37,918 bases of DNA. Origin: Burkholderiales bacterium (GTDB lineage: Bacteria > Pseudomonadota > Gammaproteobacteria > Burkholderiales > Burkholderiaceae). The stretch is from contig CANBUA010000006.1 in assembly GCA_947372535.1 (NCBI GenBank), forward strand, positions 1 to 37,918, written 5' to 3'. This document shows, one piece after another, positions 27,669 to 37,174 of this stretch. Within the stretch, counting starts at the first letter, position 1. Every line of letters begins with the position of its first letter. The notes under the pieces were generated by a model that had not been told where the DNA came from, did no database searches, and saw only the letters and a program-made list of their open reading frames with translations. Both the position numbers and the translations under genes were made by a program.

Positions 27669-27687
27669 TACTTGCATCATGCAAGTA
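27669..27687. promoter_or_regulatory. HxlR operator candidate, perfect 19-bp dyad
   Basis: TACTTGCATCATGCAAGTA is a perfect inverted repeat with a one-base centre. It lies directly after the predicted hydrolase start point, so a bound repressor would block transcription. ACTTGCA/TGCAAGT arms resemble sites reported for HxlR-type regulators. Confidence 0.75.
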
Positions 27688-27722
27688 ACTCAGGTTTGGA
27701 TGAATCAAGGAAAGGTCTGCTC

Positions 27723-28493
27723 ATGGCTGATGTCGCGATGTTTGTGCACTCCACCGGCACGGGTCCCTTCATGTGGAAAAAGCTCATGGGCAGCGTTCCC
27801 GAAGGCATCCAGGCGATCGCGCCGGTGAACCGCGGTTATGCGCCGGACGACGCCTGGCCGCGCGGCCGCGATTTCGACATCGGCATGGATGTGGCTCACC
27901 TCAAAAGCCAGATCCCGGCAGGCACGACCGGGCTCCATTTGGTGGCCCACTCTTACGGCGGTCTGCTGGCACTGCACCTGGCGCTGGACCCGGATGTGCC
28001 GGTCAAATCGCTGTGGCTGTATGAGCCGGTGTTATTCGGCTCGCTCAGGCTCATCCAGGATGAGCTCTCCGATGAGGTCGGTCCCGAAGTCGCCGCGTTG
28101 TACGACACGCCCGATTTCCTGGGCCACGAAGAGCGCGGCGGGGACGATGCCTGGCTGGAGCGCTTCATCGATTACTGGAGCCAGCCGGGCGTGTGGGCGT
28201 CCATGCCCGACAAGGTCAAGGCGCTCAGCCGGGGGCTGGGCTGGAAGATGTTCCAGGAGGTGCGCTCGCAAGCCCTGCTGTACCGGCCCTTGACGGACTA
28301 CCGCATCGAGGTGCCGATCACTTTGCTGCATGGCGAGCACACCCGCACGCCGGCACGCGACATGGTGCGCCGCCTGGCCGCCCTCAACCCACAGGCCGAA
28401 CTGGTCAGTTTGGCCGGGTTGGGGCACATGTCGGTGGTCACGCAGGCCGATCTGGTCGCGCCCAGCCTGCAAAAACACTGGAATCGTCTTTGA
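27723..28493 (+). CDS. alpha/beta hydrolase
   Basis: The product is 256 aa from ATG 27723 with AAGG/AAAGG upstream; the frame open back to 27081 is antisense to the HxlR gene. The alpha/beta fold shows MFVHSTGTGPFMWKKLM (oxyanion region), the nucleophile elbow LHLVAHSYGGLLALHLAL (Ser77), an acid near ITLLHGEHTRTPA, and catalytic His in AGLGHMSVVTQAD. No signal peptide is present, so it is cytosolic. The substrate is unknown. The operator dyad and divergent HxlR gene suggest that it is induced by a small, possibly aromatic or reactive compound. Confidence 0.93.
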   Translation: MADVAMFVHSTGTGPFMWKKLMGSVPEGIQAIAPVNRGYAPDDAWPRGRDFDIGMDVAHLKSQIPAGTTGLHLVAHSYGGLLALHLALDPDVPVKSLWLYEPVLFGSLRLIQDELSDEVGPEVAALYDTPDFLGHEERGGDDAWLERFIDYWSQPGVWASMPDKVKALSRGLGWKMFQEVRSQALLYRPLTDYRIEVPITLLHGEHTRTPARDMVRRLAALNPQAELVSLAGLGHMSVVTQADLVAPSLQKHWNRL

Positions 28494-29324: not shown

Positions 29325-29834
29325 TCAGCTTGGCAGGCTGGATGCCACCAGATGCAGGCGCAGGTCGAACTCGTACTGGTGGTAGTTGGGCTCCATGTGG
29401 GTGCACAACTGATAAAACGCCTTATCGTGCTCGCGCTCCTTCAAATGCGCCAGCTCATGCACGACGATCATCTTGAGGAACGCGGACGGTGTTTCCTTGA
29501 ACAGGCTGGCCACGCGGATCTCGCGCTTGGCTTTCAGCTTGCCACCCTGCACCCGAGAGACCATGGTGTGCGTGCCTAAAGCGTGCTGGATTACCTTGAG
29601 CTTGTTGTCGTAGGCTACTTTGTTGATGGGCTCGCTGCTGCGCATGTAGCGCTGCTTGAGGTCCATCACGTAGTCGTAGAGCGCCTTGTCCGTGCGCACC
29701 TCGTGGCGATCCGGGTAGCGCTTGGCGACCACCTCGGCGAGCTTGCCGGCATCGATCAGCTCGCGCACTTGCACCAGCACAGCGTCGGGGTAGCCGCTCA
29801 GGTAGCGCAAGGGGTTCTCGCTGCGTGGGTTCAC
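29325..29834 (-). CDS. YgjP-like (DUF45) zinc metallopeptidase domain protein
   Basis: This is a 169-aa protein. The HExxH site H126ELAH130 with H136 (EREHDKAFYQL) is the zinc site of the WLM/YgjP/SprT-like group. The start codon is GTG (29832-29834), which overlaps the exonuclease I stop as GTGA, so translation is coupled. N-terminal residues (YLSGYPDAVLVQVRELIDAG) are helical. Family members include DNA-protein crosslink proteases, so the pairing with exonuclease I hints at DNA repair, but this is inference. It converges with the amidotransferase gene. Confidence 0.88.
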   Translation of the reverse strand: MNPRSENPLRYLSGYPDAVLVQVRELIDAGKLAEVVAKRYPDRHEVRTDKALYDYVMDLKQRYMRSSEPINKVAYDNKLKVIQHALGTHTMVSRVQGGKLKAKREIRVASLFKETPSAFLKMIVVHELAHLKEREHDKAFYQLCTHMEPNYHQYEFDLRLHLVASSLPS

Positions 29835-31276
29835 GGCGCGATCTGCTCCGCGTAGTCATAGAGGGCGCCCAGGATCTCCTGCCCACGCTCGTCGTCCTCG
29901 GCAAGTTGCTCGCTCAGGGCATCGATGTGCTCGAAAAAGGCCGACAGCGACAGGCCGCCGCCTTGGCCCTCGTGCAGCCGGGCCGCGCAGTGCGTCAGCC
30001 AGCGCTCGCGGTCAGTCGCGGACAGGGTCTGAGGGAAATTGCGCGCGCGGTAGCGGAACAGCAACTCTTCAAGGCGCTCATCGGCGAACGCAGGCTGGCG
30101 GTCCAGCAGTTGCTCGGCCAGCAGCTCAGGCCGCATCGCCTTGATGCGGGTGAGCAGGCGCCGGTCGTCCGCGCCGACGAAGCCGCCGTACAAGTCTTCA
30201 TCCACATCGGGCAGGTTGGCAGCCTTGGGGCGTTGGAACACCTCCAGCCAGATGCCCGCCATGGTGTGACCACGCTGAGCGGCGGTCTCTGCATGGCGCA
30301 GGGCCTGGTCCACGTCGATGCCCCAGCGTGCGGCCACGGTCGGTGTCAGCGTCTTGAGGTTGCCGATGACGATGGGCGACTTGTTGATGTGGATGGTCTT
30401 GACCGGCAGGCGGGTGACGCCCTCGGGCAGGTCGTCGGTCTTGGTGAACATGCGCAGGGCGATGTCGCCAGCGCTCAGGCCGAAGAGCTCGGCCGGGTCA
30501 TGGGCCAAGTCCCAGACGATGATCTCGTTTTTGTTGGTCGGGTGCGGCGCCAGTGGCCAAACGATGCCGAGACATCCACGCTCCACCCCGTGCATGCCGG
30601 AGATGTGGATGAAGGGGCGACCCACACCGATCTCGGCCAGCACAGCGTCCTTCTTGCGCAATTTCAGGCAGAAATCCCACAGCTTGGGCTGTTGCTGCTT
30701 GATCAAGCGGGCCAGGGCGATGGTGGCGCGCACATCGGACAAGGCATCGTGAGCGGCTTCGTGGACCAGGCCGTTGGCCTTGGTCAAATGCTCCAGCTTG
30801 AAAGACGGGCGGCCGTCCTCGTGCTTGGGCCATTCGATGCCCTCGGGGCGAAGGGCCCAGGTGCAGCGCACGACATCCAGCAAATCCCAGCGGCCGCAGC
30901 CGTTCTGCCATTCGCGCGCATAGGGCTCGATCAGGTTGCGCCAGAACAGGTAGCGCGTCACTTCGTCGTCAAAGCGGATGGTGTTGTAGCCCACGCCGAT
31001 GGTCTGCGGCTGGGCCAGTTCGCGCTCGATCAGGTCGGCAAAGGCATGCTCTGGCACGCCGCGCTCCAGGCAGGTCTGCGGCAGGATGCCTGTCAGCAGG
31101 CAAGCCTCTGGATTGGGCAGGTAATCAGGCGCGGGCTGGCAATAGGCCATCACCGATGCGCCGATCTCATTCAGGTCGGCATCAGTGCGGATGCCGGCGA
31201 ACTGAGAGGGCCGATCGCGCCGAGGCACCGTGCCGAAGGTTTCGTAATCGTGCCAGAAGAAGGTGTACTCGCTCAT
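29831..31276 (-). CDS. sbcB: exodeoxyribonuclease I (exonuclease I, DEDDh type)
   Basis: This is 481 aa, the usual length for E. coli-type ExoI. The start is ATG 31276; the longer frame to 31678 runs antisense through the decayed esterase and is ignored. FFWHDYETFG holds the first catalytic acids (Asp10, Glu12), followed by IGVGYNTIRFDDEVTRYLFWRN (second Asp) and HDALSDVRATIALARLI (third His-x4-Asp). It removes single-stranded DNA from 3' ends and acts in mismatch repair and recombination. It is translationally coupled to the YgjP-like gene (GTGA overlap). Confidence 0.95.
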   Translation of the reverse strand: MSEYTFFWHDYETFGTVPRRDRPSQFAGIRTDADLNEIGASVMAYCQPAPDYLPNPEACLLTGILPQTCLERGVPEHAFADLIERELAQPQTIGVGYNTIRFDDEVTRYLFWRNLIEPYAREWQNGCGRWDLLDVVRCTWALRPEGIEWPKHEDGRPSFKLEHLTKANGLVHEAAHDALSDVRATIALARLIKQQQPKLWDFCLKLRKKDAVLAEIGVGRPFIHISGMHGVERGCLGIVWPLAPHPTNKNEIIVWDLAHDPAELFGLSAGDIALRMFTKTDDLPEGVTRLPVKTIHINKSPIVIGNLKTLTPTVAARWGIDVDQALRHAETAAQRGHTMAGIWLEVFQRPKAANLPDVDEDLYGGFVGADDRRLLTRIKAMRPELLAEQLLDRQPAFADERLEELLFRYRARNFPQTLSATDRERWLTHCAARLHEGQGGGLSLSAFFEHIDALSEQLAEDDERGQEILGALYDYAEQIAP

Positions 31277-31388
31277 GCCGGCACGATAACGCACTCGGTG
31301 GCGGTGACACCCACCGCTTGGCCCACATGCGCTGATCTTTCTACAAAGGGCGTGCCGATGCAGGGTTGGTTGAACGCGCCTCAGCGCC

Positions 31389-31852: not shown

Positions 31853-33112
31853 TCAAGGTGCGGGCGCGCTGGTCTTGACGCCCGACATCGCCAGGATGTC
31901 CGGGCGGTCATGGCCGAACATGATGGTGAGCTGCTCGAGTTGCGCCTGAGCGCCCATGCGCCTAAGCCGCGCCAGGCCACCCGGCATCAGGCGGTTGATC
32001 CCGCACCACACGAAGTTCAGCGGCGCAAAGACCAGCGGATACCATGGCAGCACACGGGTGGGCAATCCCAAATCGCGCATGCCCTGGCTGCCCACAAAGA
32101 GGCGGCAAATGCTGAGGTGCACCTCCTTGTTCCACAGGCCGCTCAGGCGGCGCCAGCGCGGATAGTGGCGGGCCAAAGGCTCATCCATGAGGGCACGGCC
32201 CAGTTGTTGGCTGCTCTCATCGGCCGGGGCCTGGCTGAGCAGGTTCTGATAGAGGGCCACGCGGCTGTCCTGTTCGGTGGCGCACAGCCACTGGTCCTGC
32301 ACACCCATCACCCAGCCGATGTAGCGCCACAGGTGCATGACGTCTTCAGCCTCTTGCTGCCGGAGGATCACGCCCATCACGCGCTGGCCCATCAGGTAGA
32401 CCGTGGAAAAGCCCAGGTAGGTGGCTTGCATGTCGACTTGGTTGATCGGCAAGCCCAGTTCGGCAGCATCCCACTTGGGGCTCGCCGCCACGTGGCGCCG
32501 CACCAGCGCGTGGATCATGCGCACGCGGATGGTGTTCTTGAAGCCATCGCCAAAGCGGTCCATGCCACCGGGCTGAGCACAGTCGTGGCGCCACTTGGTG
32601 GTCTCGGCGATGCGCCGGGCCACGCCTTTTTCCAGAGCACCCGTCATCACCAGCGTCTTGTTGATGGCACCGGCCTGGTAGCCCGCCATCAGCCCCAGGT
32701 CACGCAGGATGCGCATGCCCGTCAGGCCCGACAGGTAGCTGGCCTGGACGCCACGCCCCAGGCGCTCGCGATCCAGCCAAGCAGGTGTCTGCTCGACGTG
32801 GGCAAAAAAATCCCGCAAAGGTTGAGGCGCCCCGTGAACGGCAGCTATGCCTTGCGCCAGGGCCTGCTCAAACATCGTCCGAGCCAGCGCCATCCCATGA
32901 GCCTGCATCCACTGAACCAAGGCATCGGCTGCTGGGTCGCCCTCGTGATACGCCTGCCCCAGCCGCTGCCATTGCTCGGTAGAGGGCTGCGCAGCACGCT
33001 TGTCGCGGATAAAGAGTTTGAGCACCGGACTGGCCACACGCGCCGCATTGACCGGATCGATGCCGTGACGTCGAGGGGCGGTGTAGGAGGGAGACGCTTC
33101 AAGGCTGGACAT
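31853..33112 (-). CDS. oxygenase MpaB/latex-clearing-protein family (DUF2236)
   Basis: This is a 419-aa protein starting at ATG 33112 (AAGGA 7 bp upstream). The family includes the b-type-haem rubber oxygenase Lcp and fungal MpaB. R167-IAE-T171 and H201 (VRMIHALVRRHV) keep the spacing I recall for Lcp residues R164, T168 and the axial haem ligand H198. The C-terminal half has SICRLFVGSQ and LPWYPLVFAPLNFV. No twin-arginine signal is present, so unlike Lcp it is probably cytosolic and its substrate is unlikely to be rubber. It is divergent from a TetR gene and its promoter is overlapped by a TGGTAC-N6-GTACCA dyad. Confidence 0.87.
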   Translation of the reverse strand: MSSLEASPSYTAPRRHGIDPVNAARVASPVLKLFIRDKRAAQPSTEQWQRLGQAYHEGDPAADALVQWMQAHGMALARTMFEQALAQGIAAVHGAPQPLRDFFAHVEQTPAWLDRERLGRGVQASYLSGLTGMRILRDLGLMAGYQAGAINKTLVMTGALEKGVARRIAETTKWRHDCAQPGGMDRFGDGFKNTIRVRMIHALVRRHVAASPKWDAAELGLPINQVDMQATYLGFSTVYLMGQRVMGVILRQQEAEDVMHLWRYIGWVMGVQDQWLCATEQDSRVALYQNLLSQAPADESSQQLGRALMDEPLARHYPRWRRLSGLWNKEVHLSICRLFVGSQGMRDLGLPTRVLPWYPLVFAPLNFVWCGINRLMPGGLARLRRMGAQAQLEQLTIMFGHDRPDILAMSGVKTSAPAP

Positions 33113-33150: not shown

Positions 33151-33168
33151 TGGTACCACGAAGTACCA
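33151..33168. promoter_or_regulatory. TetR operator candidate A
   Basis: TGGTAC-CACGAA-GTACCA is a perfect 6-6-6 inverted repeat. It lies just downstream of the predicted start point of the oxygenase transcript (about 33173), so a bound repressor would block elongation. The identical arms recur at 33197-33214, 46 bp away centre to centre. Confidence 0.8.
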
Positions 33169-33179
33169 AACTGAAGCCA

Positions 33180-33208
33180 AGCTTAGACTCGGCGACTGGT
33201 ACTGTCAA
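33180..33208 (-). promoter_or_regulatory. promoter of the MpaB-family oxygenase gene
   Basis: On the minus strand TTGACA (33203-33208, consensus -35), a 17-bp spacer and TAAGCT (33180-33185, -10) form a strong sigma-70 promoter. The -35 hexamer is the spacer of operator B, so binding there excludes polymerase. Confidence 0.75.
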
Positions 33209-33214
33209 GTACCA
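33197..33214. promoter_or_regulatory. TetR operator candidate B
   Basis: TGGTAC-TGTCAA-GTACCA, again perfect 6-6-6. It covers the -35 of the oxygenase promoter and the upstream edge of the tetR promoter (a plus-strand -10 TATGAT lies at 33222-33227), which suits joint repression of both divergent genes. Confidence 0.8.
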
Positions 33215-33244
33215 AATCCCGTATGATTTGCTAAACTCCGTTCA

Positions 33245-33832
33245 ATGTCCAAATCCAGCGTCGACAACGATTACCGCCACCGCATCCTGATGGCCTTGGC
33301 CGATGTGCTCATGGCGCAACGCTATGCAGACGTCACCATCGCCGACATCGCGGCCCAGGCGCGCATCTCCAAACGCACTTTCTACGAGCAGTTCGAGAGC
33401 AAGCAGGCCTGCCTGTTGGCCCTGAGCGAGCACACCAGCGAGCAGATCATGCTGGCCATCCTGGCCGCCTACCAGCCCGGCATGAACTGGTCGCAGATCG
33501 TGCACGATGTGACCAGTGCCTACCTGAGCGCCATCCAGGCCTCGCCTTCCTTGATGCATGCGCTGTACGTCGAGTTGCTCGCCACTGGCTGGCCCGGCCT
33601 TGAAATTCGACGCGCGGTGAGTGTCAAGTTTTCAGATTTTCTATGCACCCAGGTTGAGATGCTGCGTGCTCAAGGCGAGCCGCTCAAGCCCTTGTCTCCA
33701 TTGACCGCCATCGCCGTGATCGCCGGCATCAATGAGCTCATCCTGCAAGCCATGATGAGCAGCGATGCGCCTGATCTGCTGAGCCTGGCCGACACGGCCC
33801 AGGCCTTGGTGCACGCGGTGACGCGGCCTTGA
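33245..33832 (+). CDS. TetR-family transcriptional regulator
   Basis: This is a 195-aa protein. The DNA-binding domain is RHRILMALADVLMAQRYADVTIADIAAQARISKRTFYEQFESKQACLLAL in outline, with the recognition helix ISKRTFYEQF. The remaining all-helical ligand domain is variable. Two perfect operator-type dyads lie in the 132-bp region shared with the divergent oxygenase gene, so it most likely represses the oxygenase and itself. The BAHD-like gene begins 64 bp downstream on the same strand and may be co-transcribed. A hydrophobic or lipid-like inducer would fit the neighbourhood, as an inference. Confidence 0.93.
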   Translation: MSKSSVDNDYRHRILMALADVLMAQRYADVTIADIAAQARISKRTFYEQFESKQACLLALSEHTSEQIMLAILAAYQPGMNWSQIVHDVTSAYLSAIQASPSLMHALYVELLATGWPGLEIRRAVSVKFSDFLCTQVEMLRAQGEPLKPLSPLTAIAVIAGINELILQAMMSSDAPDLLSLADTAQALVHAVTRP

Positions 33833-33895
33833 TGCAGCATTGATGCGGGACAAACCCAGCCGGTCGCCAGATTGATCTCTGGCACACTCGAACCC

Positions 33896-35206
33896 ATGCC
33901 CAAGATCAAGTCCACCCTGGTATCTCGCAAGGTCCTCAAAAGCGGTGTCACGTCGCCCGAGCGCTACTACCAATCGGGCATCGACATCCTCACGGCCGAC
34001 GTCAGCATCCCCGTCATCCATGTGCATCCGAAGGGGCTGGACGTCGAGGTACTGGAGCGCTCCTTGAGCGCCACACTGGCCAACTACCCTTTGATCGCCG
34101 GCCAGCTCAAGAAGGATGAAAAGGGCTACCCCTACTACCTGGCCAGCGACGTCGGCCTTGAATTCTGCGTGCGCCGCTGCAAAGGTCCCACGCCCGACTA
34201 CGGCCCGCACCACCACATGGCCGATCACTTGAGCAGCTACTACAAGCAGATCTGGCCCTGGCACCGCTATGGCAAGGACGAGTGCATGAGCTCGTTCACC
34301 ATCTACCAGTTCGACGATGGTGGCGCGATCCTGAGCATGAGCATGCTGCATTCGCTGCTCGATGGCACGTCTTACTGGCAGTTCATGCTCGATTGGATGA
34401 GCGCGGCCAAGGGTGTGCCGACGCCGCCCAGGCCCATGAACCGCCAGTTGACCATCGACCTGGGCCAAGCCCACATCGACAAGCCCTTCACCAAGGGCTA
34501 CACCTATCGGCCGCCATTCTTCGAGTGGCTCAAGGTATTTGCCACGCTGGGCTGGGCCTTCTTGTTCCAGCTCAAGAAAGAGATCTACCGCGTGCCCGCC
34601 AGCACCGTGGCCCAGTGGAAGGCCGAAGCAGTCGCCGAGGGCGGCGAGGCCGCCACTGCGTCACCCTCCGAGCTGGTCACCGCCCATGTGCTCAAGGTGC
34701 TCTCGCCCGTCTGGCCAAGCCACGAGGACCGCTACCTGGGCATGGTGATCGACCTACGCTACAAGCGCAGCCTGCGCATCCCGCGTCAATTCTTCGGCAA
34801 TGCTTTGGGCAACCGGGATGTGCCCTATTCAAGGCAGGAGCTGGCGGAATCCTCGCTTGCGCAGATCGCCATCAAGAGCCGCACCTCGCCCGAGGGCCTG
34901 ACCACCGAGGACTTGCAAGCCTTCCTGGGACTGATGGAGCGTGGTCGCCAAGAGAAAAGCATCAAGCGCCTGATGATGCGTTCGGTGGCCCGCACCATCC
35001 AGGGCGGCTTCGTGCTGAACAACTGCAGCCACTATCCGATCTACGACATCGATTTCGGCACGGGGCCGGCCTCCTGGCACGACCCCATCGGCGTGGTGTT
35101 CCGCATGCTGATGATCATCAACACACCCAGCCAGGATGGCGGCTTCGACCTGCACTTCTCGGGGCACAAGGCCGAGCACGCCGTGCTCAAGAAGCTCTAC
35201 GGCTGA
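33896..35206 (+). CDS. BAHD-like acyltransferase (HxxxD/DFG-type)
   Basis: This is a 436-aa protein from ATG 33896. It carries the pair of motifs that define BAHD enzymes, best known from plants: HSLLDG (H152-x3-D156-G, catalytic) and YDIDFGTGPASW (D386-F-G, structural). Further matches are SELVTAHVLKVL and VIDLRYKRSLRIPRQFFGNALGN, the region that reads R-x-R ... GYFGNA in plant members. BAHD enzymes move an acyl group from acyl-CoA to an alcohol or amine. The acceptor here is unknown. The gene converges with a KAS III-like gene (14-bp gap) and follows tetR. Other CoA-dependent transferases of the condensation superfamily share HxxxD, but the DFG-x-G and GNALGN blocks favour BAHD. Confidence 0.8.
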   Translation: MPKIKSTLVSRKVLKSGVTSPERYYQSGIDILTADVSIPVIHVHPKGLDVEVLERSLSATLANYPLIAGQLKKDEKGYPYYLASDVGLEFCVRRCKGPTPDYGPHHHMADHLSSYYKQIWPWHRYGKDECMSSFTIYQFDDGGAILSMSMLHSLLDGTSYWQFMLDWMSAAKGVPTPPRPMNRQLTIDLGQAHIDKPFTKGYTYRPPFFEWLKVFATLGWAFLFQLKKEIYRVPASTVAQWKAEAVAEGGEAATASPSELVTAHVLKVLSPVWPSHEDRYLGMVIDLRYKRSLRIPRQFFGNALGNRDVPYSRQELAESSLAQIAIKSRTSPEGLTTEDLQAFLGLMERGRQEKSIKRLMMRSVARTIQGGFVLNNCSHYPIYDIDFGTGPASWHDPIGVVFRMLMIINTPSQDGGFDLHFSGHKAEHAVLKKLYG

Positions 35207-35220
35207 AGCAGCCTGATCGA

Positions 35221-36342
35221 TCAGACCTTGCGCATCACCACGCTGCCGACCGAATAGCCAGCACCGAATGAGCACATCACGCCCACCTCGCCCGAGGTGA
35301 GGTCACCGCGATAACGGTGAAAGGCGATCACCGAACCGGCCGATGCCGTGTTGGCGAACTCATCGAGGATCAAAGGCGCCAAGTTGTCGGGCACCTCGGT
35401 GCCCACCAGCTTCTTGATGACCAGCTGGTTCATGCTCTGGTTGGCCTGGTGCAACCAGTAGCGGTGCACCTGAGTGCTCTCGATGTTCAGGTCAGCCAAG
35501 TGGCCCTCAATGTGGGCGGCGGCAATTGGCACGACCTCCTTGAACACCTTGCGGCCTTCCTGGCGGAATGTCTTGTCGCGGGCATCCGGGTCGCTGTCCT
35601 CGCTGCGGTTCATGAAGCCGAAGTTGTTGCGGATGTTGTTGGAGAACTGTGTGGCCAGGCGCGTGCCCAGGACTTCCCATTGATCGGCCGCCGTGGCGGT
35701 GTCGGCACGCTCGACGATGAGCGCCGTGCACACATCACCAAAGATGAAATGGCAGTCGCGGTCCTTCCACTCGTGGTGGGCCGAGGTGATCTCGGGGTTG
35801 ACCACCAGCACGCAGCGCGCCGTGCCGGCCCGCACCGCGTTGACCGCCTGCTCGACCGCGAAAGTGGCCGATGAGCAGGCCACGTTCATGTCGAAGCCAA
35901 AACCACCGGCGCCAACAGCCTGCTGGATCTCGATGGCCATGGCCGGGTAGGCCCGCTGCATGTTGGCCGAAGAGCAGATCACCGCGTCGATGTCACTGCC
36001 TTGTTTGCCGGCCTGGGCCATGGCTTGCTGGGCCGCCACCACGGCGACTTCGGCCATCAAAGAGAGTTCGTCGTCAGGGCGCGCTTTGAAACGCGGTCGC
36101 ATGCGGGTCGGGTCCAGCACGCCTTCCTTGTCGATCACATAGCGCTGCTTGATGCCCGAGGCCTTGAGAATGAACTCCTCGCTGGAGGGCTGCAAGGCTT
36201 CGCGCTCGCCCTCGGCGATGGCCACCGCATGCAGGGTGTTGTACTGCTCGACGTAGGCGTTGAAAGAAGCCACCAGCTCCGCGTTGGAGATGATGAAGGG
36301 CGGCTGGTAAAGGCCTGTGCCGCTGATGACGACAGAAATCAT
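35221..36342 (-). CDS. beta-ketoacyl-ACP synthase III-like ketosynthase
   Basis: This is a 373-aa thiolase-fold enzyme from ATG 36342 with AGGA upstream. The triad is complete: C156 in DMNVACSSATFAVEQA, H298 in WLHQANQSMNQL and N331 in EFANTASAGSVIAFHRY. The N-terminal VVISGTGLYQPPFIISN block and SGIKQRYVIDKEGVLDPTRM form the FabH-like subfamily that is longer than housekeeping FabH (about 320 aa) and appears in secondary lipid pathways. It would condense an acyl-CoA with a malonyl carrier, or two acyl groups. It is convergent with the BAHD-like gene. Product unknown. Confidence 0.9.
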   Translation of the reverse strand: MISVVISGTGLYQPPFIISNAELVASFNAYVEQYNTLHAVAIAEGEREALQPSSEEFILKASGIKQRYVIDKEGVLDPTRMRPRFKARPDDELSLMAEVAVVAAQQAMAQAGKQGSDIDAVICSSANMQRAYPAMAIEIQQAVGAGGFGFDMNVACSSATFAVEQAVNAVRAGTARCVLVVNPEITSAHHEWKDRDCHFIFGDVCTALIVERADTATAADQWEVLGTRLATQFSNNIRNNFGFMNRSEDSDPDARDKTFRQEGRKVFKEVVPIAAAHIEGHLADLNIESTQVHRYWLHQANQSMNQLVIKKLVGTEVPDNLAPLILDEFANTASAGSVIAFHRYRGDLTSGEVGVMCSFGAGYSVGSVVMRKV

Positions 36343-36475: not shown

Positions 36476-37174
36476 CTAAAACGGACAGGCACTGCGCATC
36501 AGCAGCGTTGCCCCCGTGACGGGATGAGGCAAGCTCAGCTCACTGGCGTGCAGCAGCAAGCGAGAAGCATGCTCGCCCTCCAGGCATGGGGGGCCATACA
36601 AGGGATCGCCCACAATGACATGGCCGATGCTCAGCATGTGCACCCGCAATTGATGGGATCGGCCCGTCACGGGCTCCAGCAGCAAGCGGGTCTGCCTTGC
36701 CTCAAGGTCCCGCGCCATCACCGTGTACTTGGTCAGCGAGGGCTTGCCATGCACCTGATCAACCATCTGACGTGGCCGGTTGGGCCAGTCGGTGATCAGC
36801 GGGGCATCGACCTGGCCTTCATCCAGCTCGACCAGGCCGCTCACCACCGCCTCGTAATGCTTGTGTACCTGCCGCTTCATGAAGAGTTCGCTCAGGGCCC
36901 GCTGCATGGCCGCACCCCGACCCAGCACCAGCAACCCGGAGGTCGCCATGTCCAGCCGGTGGACGATGAGCGCATCGGGCACATGCCGCTGCACTCGGTG
37001 GATCAGGCAATCTTGCAGGTGGTCTCCCCGGCCAGGCACCGTGAGCAGGCCGGACGGCTTGTCCACCACCACCAGGTCATCGTCCAGATGCAGGGGATGA
37101 AAGCCAGCATCAGGCGGCGGCTCGTAGACCGCCAGTTGATGCACCGGAGCGGCTGGCGGACAAGGTGACGACAT
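36476..37174 (-). CDS. RluA-family 23S rRNA/tRNA pseudouridine synthase
   Basis: The product is 232 aa from ATG 37174; the longer frame to 37330 overlaps the start of aconitase and is rejected. LHLDDDLVVVDKPSGLLTVPG opens the catalytic domain, VHRLDMATSGLLVL holds the catalytic Asp75, followed by KHYEAVVSG, RLLLEPVTGRSHQLRVHM and IVGDPLYG. No S4 domain precedes it, so it is the RluA rather than RluC/D type. The target uridine cannot be told. It is divergent from acnA. Confidence 0.93.
   Translation of the reverse strand: MSSPCPPAAPVHQLAVYEPPPDAGFHPLHLDDDLVVVDKPSGLLTVPGRGDHLQDCLIHRVQRHVPDALIVHRLDMATSGLLVLGRGAAMQRALSELFMKRQVHKHYEAVVSGLVELDEGQVDAPLITDWPNRPRQMVDQVHGKPSLTKYTVMARDLEARQTRLLLEPVTGRSHQLRVHMLSIGHVIVGDPLYGPPCLEGEHASRLLLHASELSLPHPVTGATLLMRSACPF

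Follow-up and report, generated by a model that had tools for sequence, protein, structure and literature searches.

A bacterial BAHD acyltransferase gene adjoining a TetR-type regulator with putative twin operators in a Burkholderiales genome

Results

A stretch of 37,918 nucleotides from a Burkholderiales bacterium, a beta-proteobacterium near Aquabacterium (contig CANBUA010000006.1 of assembly GCA_947372535.1), referred to at its full length as the window, contains a gene for a BAHD acyltransferase (436 residues; 33896..35206, plus strand) that starts 63 bp past a gene on the same strand for a TetR-family repressor (195 residues; 33245..33832; PF00440, 1e-9). A gene for an MpaB/Lcp-type haem oxygenase (OXY, 419 residues; 31853..33112, minus strand; PF09995, 2e-17) is divergent from TetR across an intergenic region of 132 bp, and a gene for a FabW-type KAS III (373 residues; 35221..36342, minus strand) is convergent with BAHD. 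An original prediction, made from the letters of the window, had grouped a TetR regulator, a haem oxygenase, a BAHD-like acyltransferase and a KAS III longer than FabH in the interval 33151-36342. All four genes exist on the strands it gave, the profile matches confirm the regulator and the MpaB/Lcp type of the oxygenase, and the KAS III is indeed the longer protein (373 residues versus a FabH model of 322 positions); the oxygenase gene itself, however, lies outside the interval, which holds its upstream region alone. The grouping of regulator, oxygenase and BAHD is supported, but the inclusion of the KAS III is not.

The OXY–TetR intergenic region contains two exact copies of the palindrome TGGTAC-N6-GTACCA, 46 bp apart, which are putative TetR operators: operator 1 (TGGTAC-CACGAA-GTACCA, 33151..33168), whose first base is also the first base of the interval above although the original prediction did not mention it, and operator 2 (TGGTAC-TGTCAA-GTACCA, 33197..33214). 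The spacer of operator 2 reads TTGACA on the minus strand, a −35-like box directed into OXY, and the −10 element paired with it is weak by eye. The palindrome also occurs upstream of TetR homologues. Homologues that are 41–50% identical to the window TetR were matched in 28 of the 42 genomes from the genus to which Aquabacterium soli (G002) belongs, and the exact palindrome is present in 22 of these 28 and in none of the 14 genomes without TetR (Fisher p 7e-7). Of the 30 sites, 27 precede the TetR match by no more than 132 bp; one (in G819) is 3.9 kb from the match, just upstream of a hydrolase gene, and two are 6.5 kb from a TetR paralogue that is less closely related. Among 128 loci examined, only nine (L109–L117) have the exact palindrome, all of them fetched around close TetR homologues. 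Six relatives' genomes have two exact sites, spaced by 43–47 bp, and a spacer of the −35-like form TTGACA or TTGACG reads away from TetR at 11 of the 30 sites and towards it at none. Because the operator is conserved, the link between regulator, oxygenase and BAHD is firmer than could be told from the window. A shuffle control, which covers sites with up to three mismatches, was unremarkable (8 found, 6.8 expected). Three near-matching palindromes rather than two are seen in L115 (2487-2553), L116 (6909-6974), L163 (5046-5109) and L168 (4650-4715). A search of the 63-bp gap between TetR and BAHD found no terminator-like site, and the two genes are probably cotranscribed.

Genes in the relatives' loci were called with a simple codon-use caller and may in places be missed or misplaced. 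In all 22 operator-bearing loci an alpha/beta hydrolase gene lies beyond the operators (preceded by an SDR gene in L109), while the far side of TetR carries a gene for an FAA hydrolase in 21 and for an FtsX permease in 20, with ABC and HlyD genes in some.

The acyltransferase matches PF02458 with 81.1 bits (9e-23), well above the curated cut-off of 22.7, and does not score better to any other condensation-fold family, in agreement with its original naming as a BAHD. It has the two-domain BAHD fold, and its HxxxD motif reads HSLLDG, with His152 and Asp156 invariant in 39 aligned proteins, the window's own included. The place of the DFGWG motif, which is described as varying in plants (PMC10585174), is taken by DFGTG (residues 386–390). 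The rarity of such proteins in bacteria, as had been predicted, is borne out by samples of increasing breadth, each of which includes G002: the PF02458 cut-off is passed in 3 of 399 genomes of the family, 2 of 399 of the order and 1 of 398 of the phylum, and all three genomes from the family sample are also on the genus list. Within the genus the cut-off is passed by 26 of the 42 genomes (28 at E 0.001); the match in G810 is weak and partial, leaving 25 genomes with full-length matches. A single pass over the GTDB contig collection yielded 12 BAHD loci, of which seven are named Aquabacterium, one Leptothrix and four Burkholderiales only. A second search with a broader alignment again gave at least 39 proteins, five of them new, and a search of plasmids for BAHD returned no match.

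Weak PF02458 matches (18–25 bits) in L024, L067, L068 and L069 were excluded from these counts; the L024 protein, the only one of the four to be scanned, scores better to Condensation (PF00668) than to PF02458. This condensation-type protein (L024:6361-9501) is encoded near lptE- and holA-like genes, and the gene order is alike in L067, L068 and L069. A divergent PF02458 protein from another Burkholderiales genome (G398; L025:9137-10465), 21% identical to that of the window, was also kept apart, and proteins P0162–P0164 are additional distant relatives.

BAHD genes occur in three main contexts. Type A comprises the window and L001–L004, where BAHD is by FabW, with a LysR gene in between in L001–L003; BAHD is thus near FabW again in 4 of 12 BAHD genome loci. 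In type B (20 loci) a gene for an ICMT-like methyltransferase and/or an Abhydrolase_10 protein adjoins BAHD, and 18 of the 20 have Abhydrolase_10 and FtsX permease genes (at least FtsXa), followed by those for an ABC ATPase and HlyD where the contig allows. Five type B genomes have two tandem BAHDs, the pairs lying by the Abhydrolase_10/FtsX/ABC/HlyD set (L058:8654-11307, L060, L061, L062 and L063). A thiolase-like gene, named by its sequence start alone, lies about 0.8 kb upstream of BAHD in L006, L010 and L011 and is divergent from the ICMT–BAHD pair. In type C (L021, L022, L059 and L027) BAHD is divergent from genes for a zinc-type dehydrogenase, a KAS III, an SDR, an AMP ligase and a second KAS III; these families were profile-scanned in L021 and assigned by gene clustering in the other three. 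The stretch L021:10708-16540, like its counterparts in L022, L059 and L027, resembles a small biosynthetic cluster with esterification as its last step. L023 and L025 fall outside all three types. A tree of the BAHD proteins (P0039 omitted, the window gene call in place of P0001) does not decide if the type A loci form a single group. The exporter proteins of one type B locus resemble those of one TetR locus: between BAHD locus L012 and TetR locus L114 the identities are 70% for FtsXa, 68% for FtsXb, 80% for ABC and 66% for HlyD. Since TetR and BAHD each lie by the same exporter type in relatives, both appear to be tied to that exporter type, and in the window directly to each other.

The oxygenase matches PF09995 with 64.4 bits (cut-off 23), and its nearest solved chains are those of the rubber oxygenase 5o1m/5o1l (8e-20), which we take to be LcpK30. 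Counted on the alignment, Arg164, Thr168, Arg195, His198 and Arg202 of Lcp correspond to R167, T171, R198, H201 and R205 of OXY. Residue tallies over the best 120 of 793 proteins, the window's own included, place the equivalents of His198 and Thr168 in all 120 and that of Arg164 in 119. In Lcp, His198 is the proximal haem ligand, Arg164 and Thr168 are active-site residues, and Lys167, the distal axial ligand in LcpK30, is 59% conserved in the Lcp set compared there (PMC5522427). OXY lacks this distal lysine and has Glu170 in its place, as do all of the same 120 proteins, and we therefore assign it to a Glu-type subgroup; the exchange hints at a five-coordinate haem at rest. An oxygenase match at 1e-60 or better was found in 30 of the 42 genus genomes, so the oxygenase is not specific to BAHD. 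The N-terminus of an alpha/beta hydrolase in the window (27684-28493, plus strand) resembles, unaligned, those of hydrolases in L118, L120 and L122, whose genes and that of the oxygenase homologue are 3.4–4.2 kb apart. Judged from its start, a further gene in L119 and L121 looks TetR-like.

The KAS III scores 613 bits to NCBIfam NF005703/PRK07515 (cut-off 304). FabW of Ralstonia (RSp0194) and Pseudomonas PA3286 are described as KAS III enzymes that prefer octanoyl-CoA (PMC4549310); both presumably belong to PRK07515, making the window enzyme probably of the FabW type. Among the 42 genus genomes, 38 contain a match to this KAS III with an E value no worse than 1e-100. Of 39 FabW loci fetched, five in which FabW was not called (L076, L096, L097, L100 and L104) were dropped. 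In 22 of the remaining 34, FabW and ExoI (exodeoxyribonuclease I) are immediate neighbours with a shared orientation; six others show FabW in a different context (L073, L078, L079 and L084–L086), in L088 three genes separate the two, and in L090 and L105 the context is cut by the contig end. An RluA-like gene is close to FabW in many of the fetched loci. Three of the 34 are BAHD loci, namely L106 (the L002 site), L107 (the L001 site) and L108 (L004); BAHD and its companions are inside the ExoI–FabW junction in the window, L106 and L107, and in L108 BAHD adjoins FabW with ExoI not near. The window has the same flanks, with ExoI on the left of the block (29831..31279, minus strand, approximate start; PRK11779, 658 bits) and an RluA-like pseudouridine synthase as the next minus-strand gene after FabW (36476..37144, approximate start; PF00849). 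A candidate operator for FabW was rejected, as the nearest site (36305-36322) has three mismatches, which is within chance. An Rfam scan of the window gave no match at gathering score. Because FabW is present in so many genomes, and beside ExoI without BAHD, we place it outside the pathway and judge it to be a resident gene and a bystander rather than part of the cassette, contrary to the original prediction.

Discussion

From the genes themselves, the twin palindromes, their conservation next to TetR homologues of the genus, the −35-like box and the occurrence of FabW without BAHD, all read in the sequence, we propose that OXY, TetR and BAHD probably form a three-gene block located in the ExoI–FabW junction and governed by one TetR-controlled switch, with FabW as a bystander. 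A ligand-free TetR dimer would sit on both operators and block the divergent promoters, that of the oxygenase on one side and that of TetR–BAHD on the other, until released by a hydrophobic ligand. The oxygenase could then cleave a C=C bond of a hydrophobic substrate to give carbonyls, while BAHD, with His152 as base, would use an acyl-CoA to acylate an alcohol, and the resulting lipophilic ester might be exported or stored. Export and hydrolysis enter the model because in relatives the homologous TetR and most other BAHDs each adjoin an alpha/beta hydrolase and an exporter of a single type. The role of FabW would be in ordinary fatty acid synthesis.

Several observations weigh against this proposal. 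Neither the oxygenase nor TetR was found in the fetched stretch of any of the 12 BAHD genome loci, some of which are short (3.1 kb for L003), so the four-gene neighbourhood, whose recurrence was the check suggested with the original prediction, recurs in none of them. Likewise, the nine loci around oxygenase homologues (L118–L126) contain neither the exact operator nor a TetR closely related to that of the window, and clustering revealed no oxygenase among the genes of the ten TetR loci (L109–L117 and L127), so that co-travelling of the oxygenase with a window-type TetR elsewhere was rejected. A BAHD relative (81%) and an oxygenase relative (66%) are listed on equally long contigs (5,055), which is only suggestive. 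In six genomes of the genus the stretch upstream of the TetR match (41–45%), searched with up to two mismatches, lacks the palindrome, although one of them (G007) offers no more than 57 bp before the end of the contig. Reversing the pattern as a control still yielded 11 sites across the genus genomes, compared with 30 for the palindrome. The median identity among operator-bearing TetRs is 61%, compared with 41–50% for the window TetR, which may therefore be a divergent copy. Finally, a promoter scan lists not the proposed OXY promoter but one on the minus strand at 33251-33223 (0.8 expected by chance).

The possibility that the genes are chance neighbours, with TetR controlling the oxygenase and itself only and BAHD using its own promoter, gains from the variable gene order among relatives, from the TetR–BAHD gap, which is long enough to hold a promoter, and from the LysR gene that accompanies BAHD instead in L001–L003. 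It is nevertheless unlikely, given that TetR and BAHD share a strand across a short gap with no terminator-like site and that, in other genomes, each of the two has a link to the same type of exporter. The pathway originally envisaged, in which FabW, BAHD and the oxygenase together make, esterify and cleave an alkyl or aryl ketide, would account for BAHD and FabW being adjacent in the window and close together in L001–L004; given also the two KAS III genes of the type C operon and the thiolase-like neighbours in L006, L010 and L011, BAHD has come to lie with condensing enzymes more than once. We regard this pathway as distinctly improbable, however, since FabW keeps its ExoI-side place without BAHD, is convergent with BAHD, has nearby only an operator-like site within chance, and has no gene clustering with it in any of the 20 type B loci. 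That the transferase is not a BAHD but a PapA- or condensation-type enzyme sharing its fold is scarcely credible: the HxxxD fold is common to all of these enzymes, and the genus does contain condensation-like weak PF02458 matches (L024), but this explanation is largely refuted by the profile scores given above.

BAHD enzymes are regarded as a plant, and in part a fungal, family. A phylogenomic study from 2024 uses parsimony to place the emergence of the BAHD gene in its species tree, and its text nowhere contains the word bacteria (PMC11449225). Our literature searches on bacterial BAHDs, which covered few subscription journals, gave no title on them among the matches listed. The protein is thus of a known kind, and what is new is a bacterial, nearly genus-restricted BAHD clade with an exporter context and a putative TetR switch. 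With tandem copies and three gene contexts, this compact clade lies within a single culturable genus. Thanks to the operator, the control of one BAHD can be tested directly, and the ligand of TetR would point to the substrate.

Compared with known systems, the nearest plant BAHD by fold is HCT of Coleus blumei (PDB 5kjv), to which the window protein is 20% identical. It differs from plant BAHDs in having DFGTG for DFGWG, D[FLM]G.G forms being found in relatives, and in belonging to a clade that is bacterial and, in the samples searched, almost limited to one genus. The oxygenase has PF09995 and the five equivalent residues in common with LcpK30 and MpaB-family oxygenases, with glutamate instead of the distal Lys167. 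The KAS III is long, like FabW RSp0194 and PA3286, and the sole difference seen is its BAHD neighbour. The closest counterpart of the proposed switch is the TetR/FAA hydrolase/FtsX/alpha-beta-hydrolase locus of the genus (L109–L117 and L157–L169), which has a homologous TetR and the same palindrome and, in many cases, the twin-operator layout and the −35-like spacer; in the window the divergent gene is an oxygenase, not a hydrolase, and the gene next to TetR in its own direction is BAHD.

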